The position numbers and the translations under genes are program-made. The notes under the pieces were generated by a model. That model had not been told where the DNA came from. It made no database searches and worked only from the letters and a program-made list of their open reading frames with translations. A DNA stretch of 64,000 bases. Origin: Opitutus sp. GTDB lineage: Bacteria > Verrucomicrobiota > Verrucomicrobiia > Opitutales > Opitutaceae. Shown here piece by piece: positions 28,382 through 34,356 of this stretch (positions are counted from its first letter, which is position 1; every line of letters begins with the position of its first letter). Location of the stretch: NCBI GenBank assembly GCA_013821985.1, contig PNJQ01000008.1:1-64000 (forward strand). The letters are read 5' to 3'.

Positions 28382-29674
28382 TTACTGTTTGTAGATTTTG
28401 CCGGCCTTCATGACGAAGCTGACTTGCGTCACGACGTTGATGTCGGCGAGCGGATCGCCGGCGACGGCGACGAGATCCGCGAATTTGCCGGGCTCAACCG
28501 TGCCGAGATCGTTTTCCATTTCGATCAGCCGCGCGGCTTCGAGCGTGGCGGCCTGGATCGCTTTCATCGCAGGCATGCCGGCTTCGACCATGTAGATGAA
28601 CTCCTTGGCATTGTCGCCGTGCGGGCCGACGCCCTGGTCGGTGCCGAACGCGATCTTCACGCCGGCCGCATAGGCGCGACGGAACGTTTCCTGGATGAGC
28701 GGCCCGATCGCGGCGGCCTTGGGGCGCACAATGGCGGGGAAATAGCCGTCGATGCGGGATTTTTCCGCGACAAATTTTCCGGCGCTGATCGTGGGCACGT
28801 AATAGGTGCCTTTTTCTTTCATCAGGGCCATGAGCTCGTCGGTCATGTAAGTGCCGTGTTCGATCGAGGTGACCCCGGCGCGCACCGCACGCAGCATGCC
28901 TTCGGTGCCGTGCGCGTGCGCGGCGACTTTCATGCCGTAGTCCTTCGCGGTCTGCACGACGGCGGCGAGTTCCTCGTCGGTGAAGAGCGGCGCCTGGCCG
29001 CTTTTTGCGAGCGAGAGCACGCCGCCGGTCGAGGCGATCTTGATGAAATCGACGCCATCCTTGTAGCGCTGGCGCACGGCGCGGCGGATCTCGTCGGCGC
29101 CGTTGACGGTGCCGCGAAGCGGATCGGCGAGGGCGGCTTGGAGTTCCGTGTTGAGGCCGTTCGTGCCGTCGCCGTGGCCGCCGGTGGTGGAGACGCCGCC
29201 GGCCGCGACGATGCGCGGGCCTTCGACCCAGCCCTTGGCGATCGCGTCGCGCAAGGCGGTGTTGAGTTTATCGCCCGCGCCGCAATCGCGCACGGTGGTG
29301 AAGCCCGCGAGCAGAGTCTTTTTCGCGTAGGTGGTGGCGCGGAGGATCTTGTCGGCGGGATTCAGGTAGAGATTTTCCGCGTAGCCGGCCGCGCCCGACT
29401 GTTCGCTCGTGATGTGGACGTGCATGTCCATCCAGCCCGGCATGAGCGTGGCGGATTTGAGATCGACGACGGTATCGTCGGCGGTCGGAGCGGCGAATCC
29501 GTCGGCGATGCCCACGATGCGGTCGCCCTCGACGACCACAGTGACGTTGGACCGGGCGGTGTCGGAGCGACCGTCGATCAGCCGGCCGGTGTGAAGGAGA
29601 GTTTTCGCGGACAGCAGCGTGCCGGTGCACAGCAACGTCGCCGCGAACAGGGGTAGGCGCGGGGAGTTCAACAT
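28382..29674 (-). CDS. Secreted metal-dependent amidohydrolase (imidazolonepropionase-like)
   Basis: 430 residues with a signal peptide ([17 protein letters not shown]). Amidohydrolase marks: GWMDMHVHI metal site, [13 protein letters not shown] with the candidate carboxylated Lys, [12 protein letters not shown] and TSIEHGTYM metal His, and [14 protein letters not shown] with the catalytic Asp. Closest in plan to Xaa-Pro dipeptidase/imidazolonepropionase-like exported hydrolases that clip dipeptides. The ATG at 29674 is chosen because it directly starts the signal peptide. Divergent from the small-peptide operon, with a 257-bp shared upstream region. Confidence 0.87.
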
Positions 29675-29931
29675 GAGTTGCGACGCTAGCTGCGGCTGGT
29701 CATCGCGCGCAACGGCCAATTCATCGCGCGCCGGTCGCGGGTTGTTCTCCGCTCGCTCGACATCCGGGTGTGCTCGGCCATGGTGCGGCCCACCCCTCGC
29801 GTCCCCCGGCGCGCGCAGTTTTCCGGAATAAACTCCGCCGGCCGGGCTCTCACCCGCCAATTCCCCCTTTTGTCCACGCCCGGCGGCACCGTGCCGTTGG
29901 CGGACGAAAAACCCAAAAACCTGAAATCCTC

Positions 29932-30159
29932 ATGAACAAATCGACCCGCACGATCATCGCCGCCGCCGCCATCGCTGGCCTCTACGCCGGAGCGCTCGCG
30001 CTCAAGGCTTCCGCTTCCACCAACCTCAATCCCGGCACCTCGCTCGTCGGCGACGACAAAGCCAAGGACAGCAAGGATGGCTGTAAGGGCAAAGACGGTT
30101 GCAAGGGCAAGGACGGCTGCAAAGCCAAGGAGGAGAAGAAGGACGCTCCGAAGAACTGA
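29932..30159 (+). CDS. Candidate bufferin/HvfA-like precursor peptide (Cys-repeat, secreted)
   Basis: 75 residues. Residues 1-29 form a Sec signal peptide (TIIAAAAIAGLYAGALALKA, cut after ASA). The mature peptide is short and charged and carries three near-perfect repeats of KDGCKG, so its only three Cys are spaced exactly six apart. It is followed by an MNIO (DUF692) and a DUF2063 gene, the organisation of operons for modified, exported, metal-binding peptides in which the enzyme converts Cys side chains to heterocycles. Known precursors of this type (BufA, HvfA) also have a signal peptide and repeated Cys motifs. Modification and metal binding are inferred, not shown. It is too small and Lys-rich to be confused with an enzyme; a structural or stress protein is the alternative. 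Confidence 0.75.
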   Translation: MNKSTRTIIAAAAIAGLYAGALALKASASTNLNPGTSLVGDDKAKDSKDGCKGKDGCKGKDGCKAKEEKKDAPKN

Positions 30160-30205
30160 GTTGGCCAACCGCCGGGTGACGCTTCACCGGCGTTTTCGAT
30201 CTTGC

Positions 30206-30234
30206 GGAGACCGCGCGCCACTGCGCCGGTCTCC
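30206..30234 (+). promoter_or_regulatory. Hairpin between precursor and MNIO genes (possible attenuator)
   Basis: GGAGACC (30206-30212) pairs with GGTCTCC (30228-30234), followed by TTTC. A smaller GGTGA/TCACC hairpin lies just before it at 30170-30193. Such structures could lower expression of the enzyme genes relative to the precursor, as in many peptide operons; this is inference. Confidence 0.45.
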
Positions 30235-30308
30235 TTTCGCTTCCGAAGGTTTGCTTCCCAATGCCGCCGGCGAAAAGCTCCGGCCGCATTCGACAGCCCA
30301 CCGCGCTC

Positions 30309-31184
30309 ATGCCCGCTAACAAATTCAACGGCTTCACCGACTACGGCATCGGCCTCGGTCTGCGCGTCCCGCACTACGATCACATCCTGTCGGAGAAACC
30401 GACGGTCGATTGGTTCGAGATCATTTCCGAGACGTTCATGGTCGGCGGCGGCCGGCCGCTCGAAGTGCTCGAGCAGATCCTCGCGCAATACAAAGTCGTC
30501 CAACATGGCGTGTCGCTCTACCTGGGTTCGACTGACTTTCCGAACCGCGACCACCTGAAGAAGCTCAAGGCCCTGACGAAGCGCACGAAGACGCCCTGGC
30601 TGTCCGATCACCTCTGCTGGGGTAGCGTCGATGGCACCGTGTCGCATGATCTGTTGCCGATGCCCTACACGATCGCCGCGGCGAAACACGTCGCGGCAAA
30701 CATCCGCCACGCGCGCGATTTTCTCGAACTGCCGATCGCCGTCGAAAACGTCAGCTCCTACACCGAGTTCCACGCCTCCGAGATGACGGAATGGGAATTT
30801 CTCACCGAAGTAGTCGAGCGCGCCGATTGTGGAATTCTCCTCGACGTGAACAACATTTACGTCTCCTCGAAGAATCACGGCTTCGATCCCTACGATTACG
30901 TGAACGCGATCCCTCATCACCGCGTCGCGCAGATGCACATCGCCGGGCACACGAAGTTCGAAAAATACCTCCTCGATACGCACGACCATCCTGTGCTCGA
31001 TCCGGTGTGGAAACTCTACGCACACGCCATCCAGCTCTGCGGCGTGACCGCGACGCTGCTCGAGTGGGATGACAAGATTCCATCGTTCCAGGAAGTCCAC
31101 GACGAGGCGCTCAAGGCCAACGAATACATCGCTGGCGCGCGCATCGCGCTCGGCCGCGCCAAACCGGCGGCGGCTCGTTCGTGA
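30309..31184 (+). CDS. MNIO-family (DUF692) peptide-modifying enzyme
   Basis: 291 residues from the ATG at 30309; an upstream ATG at 30261 would add 16 residues that do not look conserved. Family signature is strong: GIGLGLRVPHYDHIL, VQHGVSLYLGSTDFP, WLSDHLCWG, HDLLPMPYT, IAVENVSSY, ILLDVNNIYVSSKNHGFDPY, MHIAGHTKFEKYLLDTHDHP and ATLLEWDDKIPSFQEV. These His, Asp, Glu and Asn residues make up the multi-iron site of MNIO enzymes (MbnB, BufB, HvfB), which oxidise Cys residues of a precursor peptide. Here the likely substrate is the Cys-repeat peptide encoded 150 bp upstream. It is followed after 19 bp by the DUF2063 gene. Confidence 0.92.
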   Translation: MPANKFNGFTDYGIGLGLRVPHYDHILSEKPTVDWFEIISETFMVGGGRPLEVLEQILAQYKVVQHGVSLYLGSTDFPNRDHLKKLKALTKRTKTPWLSDHLCWGSVDGTVSHDLLPMPYTIAAAKHVAANIRHARDFLELPIAVENVSSYTEFHASEMTEWEFLTEVVERADCGILLDVNNIYVSSKNHGFDPYDYVNAIPHHRVAQMHIAGHTKFEKYLLDTHDHPVLDPVWKLYAHAIQLCGVTATLLEWDDKIPSFQEVHDEALKANEYIAGARIALGRAKPAAARS

Positions 31185-31203
31185 TAAAGATTACGATCCG
31201 CCG

Positions 31204-32295
31204 ATGACCGCCGCTGCTCCGACCCCCGTCCGCCAAAAAGCCGGGCCGGTTGCCAACCGCTCGAGAAAGCACGCGCCGCGCGCGTTGCCTGCGAGATCTT
31301 CGGGCGCCGGAAAACAATCAACCAACCGAAGCCGGTCGCAGTCCGGCGCTCCGACGGCCGGCACGCCGCTCACCGCGCGCTCCAAACGCGAACTCCGCGA
31401 GTTGCAGCGCGCGATGCTCGCGGTCGTCATGAATCCGCTCACGCGCGCGAATCGCACGGCGTCCCGGCTCAGCGACGGCCGCGCCACACGCGCCGCCGCG
31501 GCGCAGATTGCGAAACCGAACGACCGGCTCACGGCGTTCGAGCGACTTGAAATCTACAATCGCATGTATTGGTTCCGCGTGCTCGACAGCCTGCACGAAG
31601 ATTGCCCGGCGTTACGCGCGGTGCTCGGCGAACGCCGCTTCCTGCGCCTGATCGAGGCATTCCTCCAAGAATTGCCGTCGTGCTACTGGACGCTGCGGGA
31701 CTTACCGCAGCGGTTGCCTGCGTTCATTCGCGCGCACCCGGGGCTCACCGCGCCGCACACCGCCCTCGCGGCGGACGCAGCGAAATTCGAGTGGGCGCAG
31801 GTGGAGGTTTACGACGGCGCGGCGTTTCCCGTGTTCACGCTCGACGATCTGCGTGGCGCCAACCCGGCGCGCCTGCGGCTCAGCCTCCAGCCTTACCTCC
31901 AGTTGCTCGAGCTGCGTTATCCGGTGGACGAGTTCGCCCTTGCGATCCGGAAGCGCGAGGCGCTGTTGCGCGGCGACGCGTCGAACGCGCCGACGGAGCT
32001 GCGCCGGCGGGCGAATTCGCTGGTGCGCTTGCCGCGGGCGGAGCGCTGCTGCGTGGCGGTGCACCGGCACGAGGGCAGGATTTATTTCAAGCGGCTCGAA
32101 CCGGCAGCGTTTCGCGTGCTCGCGGCGATCCGCGCCGGGCAGCCGCTGGCCCGCGCGCTCGCGGCCGCCCTGCCGTGGTCGAAGAATCCGCCCGAGGATT
32201 GGGCGGCGAAAGTGCAGGACTGGTTCCGCACGTGGATGGAACTTGGCTGGTTCGGCCGGCGTCGAGCATTCCGCGCGTCAGCGCGAGGCGGATGA
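31204..32295 (+). CDS. DUF2063 (BufC/HvfC-like) partner protein
   Basis: 363 residues. The conserved domain starts near residue 60: RELRELQRAMLAVVMNPLTR, RLEIYNRMYWFRVLDSLHED, and HTALAADAAKFEWAQVEVYD further on. In MNIO operons this protein is the partner that recognises the precursor and presents it to the enzyme. The first 60 residues are an unusual Arg/Ser/Ala-rich basic tail not typical of the family. The ATG at 31204 lies 19 bp after the MNIO stop. Its 3' end overlaps a convergent response-regulator gene by 18 bp. Confidence 0.85.
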   Translation: MTAAAPTPVRQKAGPVANRSRKHAPRALPARSSGAGKQSTNRSRSQSGAPTAGTPLTARSKRELRELQRAMLAVVMNPLTRANRTASRLSDGRATRAAAAQIAKPNDRLTAFERLEIYNRMYWFRVLDSLHEDCPALRAVLGERRFLRLIEAFLQELPSCYWTLRDLPQRLPAFIRAHPGLTAPHTALAADAAKFEWAQVEVYDGAAFPVFTLDDLRGANPARLRLSLQPYLQLLELRYPVDEFALAIRKREALLRGDASNAPTELRRRANSLVRLPRAERCCVAVHRHEGRIYFKRLEPAAFRVLAAIRAGQPLARALAAALPWSKNPPEDWAAKVQDWFRTWMELGWFGRRRAFRASARGG

Positions 32296-32652
32296 CGGAG
32301 CATGGGTGACGAGTTGCTCGATGGCGTCCCGCAGTATCTCGATGGGGAAGGGCTTGGGCAGCAGGCGCACGCCGCGGCGCAGTTCGGACTCGTTCGCGCC
32401 TCCCGTTACGCCGCCGGAAACAAGGATGACGGGCGGGTCGGGCACGAGTTCGCGCAGAAAATCGAGATAACTCTCCTGTCCCCGATAATTCCAGCCGGGG
32501 TCCACGATGAACAAGTCGAAGCCGGTCGCGCGGGACGCGGCGGCCTCGGCGAGATGGTCGTAGCACTCGACCGAGTGGCCGAAATGCCGGAGGACCGCCG
32601 CGCAGATCAGGCGGCAGTTTTGGTCGCTATCGACGAGGGCGATTCGGGCCAT
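32278..32652 (-). CDS. Single-domain response regulator (CheY-like)
   Basis: 124 residues, receiver domain only: IALVDSDQNCRLICAAVLRH, the presumed phospho-acceptor Asp in FDLFIVDPGWN, VILVSGG and the conserved Lys in LLPKPFPIEIL. The DPGWN around the acceptor is atypical. No output domain and no kinase nearby. It lies antisense between the DUF2063 and DoxX genes, interrupting what is elsewhere a continuous operon, and overlaps the DUF2063 3' end. Confidence 0.75.
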   Translation of the reverse strand: MARIALVDSDQNCRLICAAVLRHFGHSVECYDHLAEAAASRATGFDLFIVDPGWNYRGQESYLDFLRELVPDPPVILVSGGVTGGANESELRRGVRLLPKPFPIEILRDAIEQLVTHAPSSASR

Positions 32653-32871
32653 GGGCTGATGGAGATGAAGTGACGTCGCGCCGCGGGCACGGTGCTGCGC
32701 GGAGGGACGTTCGCTCGGGGCGCGCTTTCCCTGCCATCAGTTGTGTGCCGCGAGATTGCCACAACCCGACGGGGAGCGCTAACCGCCGATTGCTATTTTT
32801 TCCCGGCTTTCCCCGCCGGGGAATTCTCCGGCGGGCGGGAATATCCACGCCGCGTCCCGCTCTCATCGCTC

Positions 32872-33333
32872 ATGACTCCGAACTTTCGCCGTCACCTCGA
32901 GACGCTGGATCGCTGTGCTGCGCTGCTGCAGTCCCCCTTGCTGCTGCTTATCCGCCTCTATTGGGGCTGGTCGTTTGCGCAAACCGGCTGGGGCAAGCTG
33001 ACGCACCTCGAGCGCACGGCGGAATTCTTCGGCTCGCTCGGGCTTCCGGCGCCGAAGCTCAACGCGCTGGCGGCGGGCGCGACCGAGTGCGTCGGCGGCG
33101 CGCTGCTGGCGCTCGGGCTATTCGCGCGGCCGGCCGCGCTGCCGCTGATCTTCACCATGCTCGTCGCCTACGCGACGGCGGACCGCGAGGCGCTGCAGGC
33201 AATTCTGCGCGACCCCGAGCAGTTCACCGGGGCCGCACCGTTCTTGTTTTTGCTCGCGAGCGTGCTCGTCCTCGCGTTCGGCCCGGGCCGGTGGTCGCTC
33301 GACCACCTCCGGGCACGACGCCCACCGCCGTGA
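32872..33333 (+). CDS. DoxX family membrane protein
   Basis: 153 residues with four hydrophobic helices: LLLLIRLYWGWSFAQTGWGK (start of the DoxX domain), then LNALAAGATECVGGALLALG, ALPLIFTMLVAYATADREAL and FLFLLASVLVLAFGPG. DoxX proteins often close MNIO/bufferin-type operons, where their task may be redox-related. The gene starts at the ATG at 32872, 576 bp after the DUF2063 gene and beyond an antisense gene, so it probably has its own promoter. It abuts the next, convergent gene exactly (stop codons at 33331-33333 and 33334-33336). Confidence 0.85.
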   Translation: MTPNFRRHLETLDRCAALLQSPLLLLIRLYWGWSFAQTGWGKLTHLERTAEFFGSLGLPAPKLNALAAGATECVGGALLALGLFARPAALPLIFTMLVAYATADREALQAILRDPEQFTGAAPFLFLLASVLVLAFGPGRWSLDHLRARRPPP

Positions 33334-34356
33334 TCACGCGGCCGCAGTCGTGGTCGGAACCGCCGGCGTGTTCGGTGCATTGAACAGCGATTCGTAGGCG
33401 TAGAGCAGGGCCGCGATTGTGATCGGAATCGTGAGAACGATGCCGATGAAGAGCGCGATCACGCCGAGGAGGCCGAGGATGACGCCGAGCAAGAGCACGA
33501 AGAAGGTGGAGAACCAATTGCGCGTCACGACGCGCCAGCTGGTCACGATCGCGGTCCACGGTCCCAGCCCCTTGTCGATCACCAGCGCGAAGGCGAAGAC
33601 CATGGAAACTCCGATGTAGAGCATCACGAGCATGCCAACGCCGGTCAGCGCGATGAGGCCAGGCGCCAGCGTCGGCATCGAGCTGTAATCACCCTGGCCC
33701 TGCGAAACCATCATCTGGATGATGAAGCCGATCCACGGGGCCATGAAGATCGCGAGCACCGCGATGGCGATCGCGCTTTGCAGCAGCGAACACAGAACGA
33801 GCGGCCCGAGCGCGCGGGTGAAGCCACCGAACACGTCGCCAATCTCACGGTGCTCACCGCGCATCTTGCCGAGATAGAAATAATACAGGCCGCCGTAGAA
33901 CACTCCGTTAAGGAAAAGCCCGGCGAGCGATCCGACGAGCGGGATCAACCCGATGACGAGTTGGACGACGATGACGAGAAACGTCGCGCCCACGAGCGGG
34001 AGGAAATTCGAGGTCCACAACTTGAACGCGCGGCTGAGGCACTCGAACACGTCAATGCGGGCTCCGCTGGCGCGGATCGCGTCGGCGTAGGCCTTCGAGT
34101 CCACGTTGGCCAACATGATTGTCGCCCCGGCTGCGGCCGGCGCGCTCGCCGCCGGGCTGGCGCCAGCGGATGGCGGAAGGGCGGCGCCGAAGCTGCCGGC
34201 AAAATCGGGCAGTGATCCGAGCGTGCTCCAGGCGGTCTCGCCGTCGCGCCGGCATTGGGTCTGCGAATTGGCGCGCCCGGCGGCGATCCATTCGCGCAAT
34301 TTTTCGGCCGAGACCGGCCCGTATTCCTTCCCGTCAGCGCCGATGATGGTGAACAT
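33334..34356 (-). CDS. GYF_2-domain integral membrane protein
   Basis: 340 residues. Residues 1-50 are a GYF_2-type domain (FTIIGADGKEYGPVSAEKLR, ARAN..CRRDGETAWSTLGSLPDF), a protein-binding module facing the cytoplasm. An Ala/Pro linker leads to a membrane domain with about six helices (LVGATFLVIVVQLVIGLIPL, VLCSLLQSAIAIAVLAIFMA, LIALTGVGMLVMLYIGVSM, FFVLLLGVILGLLGVIALFI). The helix-rich part resembles the DUF975/glycerophosphodiesterase membrane-domain type. Function unknown; monocistronic. Confidence 0.72.
   Translation of the reverse strand: MFTIIGADGKEYGPVSAEKLREWIAAGRANSQTQCRRDGETAWSTLGSLPDFAGSFGAALPPSAGASPAASAPAAAGATIMLANVDSKAYADAIRASGARIDVFECLSRAFKLWTSNFLPLVGATFLVIVVQLVIGLIPLVGSLAGLFLNGVFYGGLYYFYLGKMRGEHREIGDVFGGFTRALGPLVLCSLLQSAIAIAVLAIFMAPWIGFIIQMMVSQGQGDYSSMPTLAPGLIALTGVGMLVMLYIGVSMVFAFALVIDKGLGPWTAIVTSWRVVTRNWFSTFFVLLLGVILGLLGVIALFIGIVLTIPITIAALLYAYESLFNAPNTPAVPTTTAAA

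Follow-up and report, generated by a model that had tools for sequence, protein, structure and literature searches.

A probable bufferin-type system with a three-site Cys-Lys precursor peptide in Opitutus sp.

What becomes of a small secreted peptide with three evenly spaced cysteines when its gene stands directly ahead of one for an MNIO (DUF692) enzyme? In this study, we address this question for a stretch of 64,000 nucleotides from Opitutus sp. (contig PNJQ01000008.1, positions 1 to 64,000; hereafter the window), in which the gene of a bufA-like precursor peptide is followed by bufB, encoding the MNIO, and bufC, encoding a DUF2063 partner protein. We conclude that a bufferin-type system of the BufA2/Cys-Lys class, working by the mechanism described below, is the best explanation of this locus and a rather probable one. 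The genes themselves and the families of the enzyme and its partner are established here. The source genome is a draft assembly (3.74 Mb, 117 contigs, 79% complete), and its nearest relatives as judged by the MNIO enzyme are Opitutaceae and other Opitutia of the Verrucomicrobiota.

An earlier note, made from the sequence of this DNA, had proposed a bufferin-type operon, and that proposal is borne out by the gene order A-B-C (precursor, then MNIO, then DUF2063) and by the enzyme, which passes the NCBIfam equivalog model MNIO_BufB (NF050167; 342.4 bits against a cut-off of 310). The same protein scores 354.7 bits against PF05114 and 249.8 bits against the HvfB model, below the cut-off of 360. 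Relatives were taken from 121 distinct MNIO loci, made up of the best 80 of at least 565 loci in a genome collection and 56 matches in 55 genomes of the family. In all 121, the residues H66, H101, E146, N182, H210, D223, H225, and E252 are invariant, and we take these eight, from their motifs, to be metal-site residues. N182 (or N181), D223, and H225 may be read as the counterparts of the HvfB site-3 ligands N175, D242, and H244, which are required for activity (PMC13419390). In MNIOs of the Cys-Lys type, an Asp adjoining the catalytic Asp takes the place of the Phe of Lys-Cys enzymes and has been modelled against the substrate Lys that follows the Cys (PMC13097082). The window enzyme, as placed by alignment to 3bww, has the pair D254-D255 at this selectivity position, and Asp is found at 255 in 114/121 relatives. 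TGA codons in eight family MNIO matches were considered as selenocysteine and dismissed; the frames at these eight loci are open through the conserved part and stop behind the C-terminus. A distant MNIO of the same family (L137 in genome G064; 48% identical) has Ala at the Asp-255 position and follows a Tat-like protein of 237 residues that has 7 Cys but lacks CK motifs and may be another type of precursor.

By inspection, the precursor opens as a Sec signal peptide, with a K/R start, an uncharged run, and an AxA site, and a short linker leads into the tail KDS-KDGCKG-KDGCKG-KDGCKA-KEEKKDAPKN. The earlier note had counted three exact KDGCKG repeats; the six-residue step between the three Cys and the exactness of units 1 and 2 stand, while the third unit is KDGCKA. 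An AlphaFold model (mean predicted local distance difference test score, pLDDT, 53.2) gives a helix at residues 3-29 and low confidence for the remainder.

To which family does this peptide belong? We consider it a BufA2-like precursor of the Cys-Lys type and probably a homologue of BufA2. With BufA2/Buf2 (NF050166) the window system has in common the Sec signal peptide, the A-B-C order, the C-x5-C spacing, and the CKG motifs; compared by eye, plasmid BufA2 of Pseudomonadota follows the pattern HCYGxNxCKGxxxC...CKGQNxCKG and shares the frame of its first five Cys with the precursors of the window's relatives. The Cys-Lys captophorin group likewise combines multiple Cys-Lys motifs with Asp at the selectivity position of the enzyme, although the abstract of the paper on it refers to Pseudomonadota, unlike the Verrucomicrobiota system described here (PMC13097082), and the main text of that paper does not mention names in Verrucomicrob- or Acidobacteri-. 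HvfA/oxazolin and fontiphorin (EGKCG, Lys-Cys) are also multi-site repeat substrates of an MNIO with a DUF2063 partner, and the hvf operon contains DoxX; however, their Lys precedes the Cys, with Gly after it, in a five-residue motif, whereas in the window peptide Lys follows Cys at a six-residue step. BufA1 (DUF2282) has the same enzyme family and partner type but differs in its DUF2282 match and in its four conserved Cys and a disulphide. The window precursor has no Pfam match at E<=1, DUF2282 included, which takes it out of Buf1, and it has neither an EGKCG motif nor KCG, which takes it out of HvfA/Buf_EGKCG, so that the earlier label "HvfA-like" gives way to Cys-Lys. Collagen-like and wall-binding matches of relatives lie far below cut-off and were set aside as low-complexity matches.

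Several observations weigh against the assignment. The window precursor does not match the BufA2 model NF050166 (cut-off 60) at E<=1, and the precursors of 14 relatives from Verrucomicrobiota, Acidobacteriota, and Planctomycetota reach 11.8-42.3 bits, all under the cut-off (11.8-20.2 for four hexad-array forms, 17.9-42.3 for the others), whereas 6/6 plasmid BufA2 precursors of Pseudomonadota that were tested pass with 84-104 bits. Buf2 bufferins have 6 or 12 Cys (PMC12452194), whereas the window peptide has 3, forming a single uniform hexad array where BufA2 has six in two groups, and lacks a separate C-terminal Cys. Because of this model score and this cysteine count, the precursor is by published definitions not a BufA2 member; it is a variant form. 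The Asp signature is not strict: among seven plasmid MNIOs beside BufA2-type peptides (six with the precursor confirmed by the BufA2 model, L211 by motif), 4/7 have Asp and 3/7 Gly at the 255 position, and CK motifs are kept in 5/6 of the relatives that lack Asp255 and have a known precursor. At the level of the locus, a promoter scan of positions 29650-33500 returned one sigma-70-like site and none ahead of the precursor, and DoxX was not found downstream in 3/6 genus loci and is not contiguous in the window. This kind of peptide is already known; small precursors that carry 1-18 Cys and belong to no assigned type have been surveyed by the hundreds beside such enzymes (PMC12452194). Neither KDGCKG nor DGCKGKDGC, CKGKNSCKGKGGC, or CKGKDGCKG appears in the literature searched, and the MNIO literature searched does not mention Verrucomicrobi- or Opitutaceae names. 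As far as that literature goes, the hexad-array form in Opitutaceae looks undescribed, and so do a variable site number within one genus and a conserved hairpin between bufA and bufB.

It seems that the three genes would act as follows. The precursor would be translated with its Sec signal peptide still on; bufC, via a domain of the type of the RiPP recognition element (RRE; RiPP, ribosomally synthesized and post-translationally modified peptide), would read this signal peptide as a leader and present the Cys to the iron enzyme bufB, which would oxidise Cys residues in the C-K-G/A units, with 5-thiooxazoles as the most likely product. Sec would then export the peptide, the leader would be removed, and in the periplasm the mature tail would sequester a thiophilic metal, for which Cu(I) is the most likely candidate. 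We infer the chemistry, the export, and the metal by analogy with the characterised relatives bufferin 1, oxazolin, and fontiphorin (PMC12452194, PMC13097082, PMC13419390). FonBC reportedly did not process NACKG, and Cys-Lys chemistry therefore depends on the enzymes of its own family; no description of the structure of a Cys-Lys product was found in the accessible text of the three papers just cited. It is also possible, if unlikely, that the peptide is modified as proposed but serves for a metal other than copper, or in a stress, for example from oxidants or mercury. MerC fusions are reported in the bufferin survey, which also suggests other metals (PMC12452194), and nothing seen at the window locus names copper; on the other hand, copper is the metal bound by the characterised bufferins and by EGKCG products (PMC12452194, PMC13097082).

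The number of sites varies. A script found a signal-peptide precursor at 114/121 MNIO loci; of the seven others, L010, L011, and L035 have an upstream sequence shorter than 420 bp, the open reading frame (ORF) of L042 contains an undetermined residue, and the precursors of L013, L028, and L059 were seen in other scans (L059 about 1 kb upstream). The 114 precursors carry 2 to 11 Cys, with 6 in 63/114, and 508 of their 651 successive Cys-Cys steps are six residues and 84 are seven; the commonest form is CKGxNxCKGxGGCxxxDNGCKGKNSCKGKGGC. Variation in site number within the genus is established, the precursor being present in 9/13 genomes, that of the window included, with 3 (window), 5, 6, 7, 7, 9, 9, 9, and 10 Cys and with MNIOs in the relatives 87-92% identical to that of the window. 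In a tree of the MNIO, the window enzyme stands beside a 6-Cys member. It belongs to a clade of 16, and among the 14 other members with a precursor count the values range from 6 to 11 Cys. Because the genus counts run from 5 to 10 and those of the clade neighbours from 6 to 11, the three-site form is most likely derived, a shortened array, and there is no support for reading the three-site peptide as a type of its own; the number of sites per peptide would change as 18-bp units are gained or lost. Two other precursors have three Cys, L080 (Acidobacteriia) and L038 (Chthoniobacter), and both keep the CKGKNTCKGKGGC frame. In seven acidobacterial precursors (L046, L054, L058, L060, L061, L066, and L078), Gly stands in place of the third Cys (CKGQGGG), leaving 4 Cys. 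At locus L049, two tandem precursor genes with lipoprotein-like signal peptides stand ahead of one MNIO.

The repeat is also present at the DNA level. A degenerate two-unit motif of the KDGCKG array (<=3 mismatches) has two overlapping matches in the window, at units 1-2 and 2-3, and matches in 0/100 shuffles. Between units 1 and 2 there are 4 synonymous and 0 non-synonymous differences, and the chance of all four being silent is about 0.001, or 0.012 counting transitions alone. That the three sites are an artefact of assembly, or of decay, of a longer array would fit a draft of this completeness and fragmentation and the 5-10 Cys of the genus relatives, and yet we regard it as improbable: no exact word of >=9 nt is repeated within the window array (the longest in the arrays of six genus relatives are at most 15-29 nt), so that assembly software would find little to merge, and compared with the relatives the left junction lacks C-K-G, which falls short of a whole unit, and the frame is intact. 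Assembly collapse of the window array is thus unlikely.

Is the peptide tied to the enzyme? The linkage is established across 200 sampled family genomes, of which 55 have the MNIO, 57 the precursor, and 54 both. The one MNIO without this precursor is the distant enzyme of G064 (48% identical) described above. The three precursor-only genomes are no clean exceptions, since all lie at contig ends: G132 at 14 bp from the end, G016 at 213 bp (a weak match, E 2.6e-7), and G186 where the contig end shows the first 85 residues of an MNIO. The bufferin reading would have been undermined by homologues of the peptide occurring without MNIO genes, and a peptide living apart from the enzyme was set aside here, the only such cases being contig breaks.

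The signal peptide, moreover, is constrained. Precursor residues 1-28 are on average 81% identical to those of the window over 12 genomes, a figure that falls to 76% when all 17 loci compared are counted (minimum 43%, in L136), whereas the signal peptides of two control proteins, an M13 peptidase in the same 12 genomes and the neighbouring amidohydrolase in 10 genomes, are 36% and 38% identical, with mature parts 57% and 66% identical. The controls used the best 12/20 matching genomes for the peptidase and 10/14 for the amidohydrolase, and L190 (a good match that starts at residue 46) and distant copies were left out. Since the precursor keeps its signal peptide far beyond what these two ordinary secreted proteins do, we propose that it may serve as leader, a role that the constraint fits; such a role is reported for the signal peptide of a bufferin (Junger 2026, as cited in PMC13419390) and has also been suggested for that of HvfA. 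The alternative of a plain secreted thiol peptide resembling a metallothionein, with the MNIO acting on something else, would suit a small, Lys- and Cys-rich product whose tail is modelled without structure, but it is very improbable given that precursor and MNIO occur together in 54/57 precursor genomes, that the signal peptide is constrained as a leader would be, and that one precursor only (search to E 0.01) and one MNIO only were found in this 79% complete genome.

How might peptide and enzymes be kept in proportion? A terminator-like hairpin lies in the gap between bufA and bufB, with a second hairpin followed by TTTT just upstream (about 30170-30192, by our own reading of the fold), and its conservation is established. 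A scan allowing bulges, covering at most the first 200 nt of each gap, found one in 69/111 loci (54/58 Opitutaceae and 15/53 others), compared with 6/110 equally long stretches upstream of bufA and 0/111 inside bufB. A bulge-free scan found hairpins in 67/111 loci against 46/1110 shuffles and missed that of the window; neither scan included L137 or two further loci whose gaps are <40 bp. In 26 of the 54 Opitutaceae hairpins, 9/12 pairs show changes on both sides and 95.3% of cells are paired, but this set was picked for forming hairpins and trimmed by hand and is partly circular, so that the independent evidence is the rate against the control regions. Gaps behind BufA2-type genes on plasmids have strong hairpins in 7/7 cases, mostly without a good T-tract (no shuffle control; two gap ends estimated). 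From this pattern it is likely that most transcripts end behind bufA, which suggests that the precursor is made in excess; the hairpin would thereby let substrate outnumber the enzymes. Speaking otherwise are its absence from 4/58 Opitutaceae loci and 38/53 others, and the hairpin could instead stabilise or protect the bufA message. A terminator is not mentioned in the MNIO literature searched, nor a hairpin, stem-loop, or attenuation in the accessible main texts of PMC12452194 and PMC13097082.

The partner protein scores 54.9 bits against PF09836 and 23.6 bits against PF22106, below the cut-off of 27, and its conserved part begins near 31375. Its predicted structure (mean pLDDT 86.9) was matched by Foldseek to TglI of TglHI (8hci, E 5.6e-6) and to NGO1945 (3dee, E 8.2e-5); a profile sequence search against solved structures gave E 0.13 at best, so the match is one of fold alone. 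The model has the architecture of a PME-type 1 partner, DUF2063 with a predicted RRE-type domain. DUF2063 follows on the same strand in 116/116 loci with >=2.2 kb downstream, and DoxX in 63/89 with >=3.3 kb. The window DoxX passes the general DoxX model PF07681 (83.7 bits) and scores 72.8 bits against HvfX (NF050144), below the cut-off of 80. The operon of peptide, MNIO, DUF2063, and DoxX described earlier is present in its parts, with the correction that an opposite-strand ORF separates DoxX from the rest (Table 1). This response-regulator-like ORF is probably outside the system; among the loci examined, a relative occurs only in G074, behind bufC (L139), where no DoxX was found downstream. 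Immediately upstream of the precursor and divergent from it is a secreted amidohydrolase (28385-29674, minus strand), which also adjoins the precursor in G037, G198, G096, G130, and G071.

Table 1. Features of the precursor locus in the window
Feature	Position	Strand	Basis or detail
bufA-like precursor, 75 aa	29932..30159	+	ORF; AlphaFold model
Parts of the bufA-like precursor			residues 1-28 Sec signal peptide/putative leader; 29-47 linker; 48-65 three sites
Three 18-bp tandem units with Cys codons	30073..30126	+	within the bufA-like ORF
Terminator-like hairpin, precursor/enzyme gap	30206..30234	+	-22.0 kcal/mol, one bulge, tail TTTCGCTT
bufB, MNIO (DUF692) putative maturase, 291 aa	30309..31184	+	NF050167, PF05114, invariant residues
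bufC, DUF2063 partner with predicted RRE-type C-terminal domain	31204..32295	+	PF09836; fold match TglI, NGO1945
Response-regulator-like ORF, single-domain, bufC/doxX interval	32278..32652	-	Response_reg 16.9 bits, cut-off 30.2
DoxX family membrane protein, possible operon accessory	32872..33333	+	PF07681

These findings widen the range of bufferin-type peptides to include a coherent form from Verrucomicrobiota and Acidobacteriota, mostly with uniform six-residue spacing. The constrained signal peptide gives evolutionary support, in another phylum, to the idea that a Sec signal peptide can double as a RiPP leader, and the hairpin provides a simple explanation, open to testing, for how production of a sequestering peptide may exceed that of its enzymes. 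With 3 to 11 sites on enzymes that are closely related, these systems form a natural series suited to studying the number and order of sites modified by an MNIO and the number of metal ions bound per peptide. We tentatively raise the possibility, though a doubtful one at present, of a metal-sequestering RiPP with a valency determined by 18-bp copy number (3 to 10 sites in the genus) and a high ratio of peptide to enzyme determined by a conserved terminator. If true, metal capacity would be tuned by array length and transcript ratio together, and the three-site peptide would represent a naturally occurring minimal substrate that might bind one Cu(I) per peptide.

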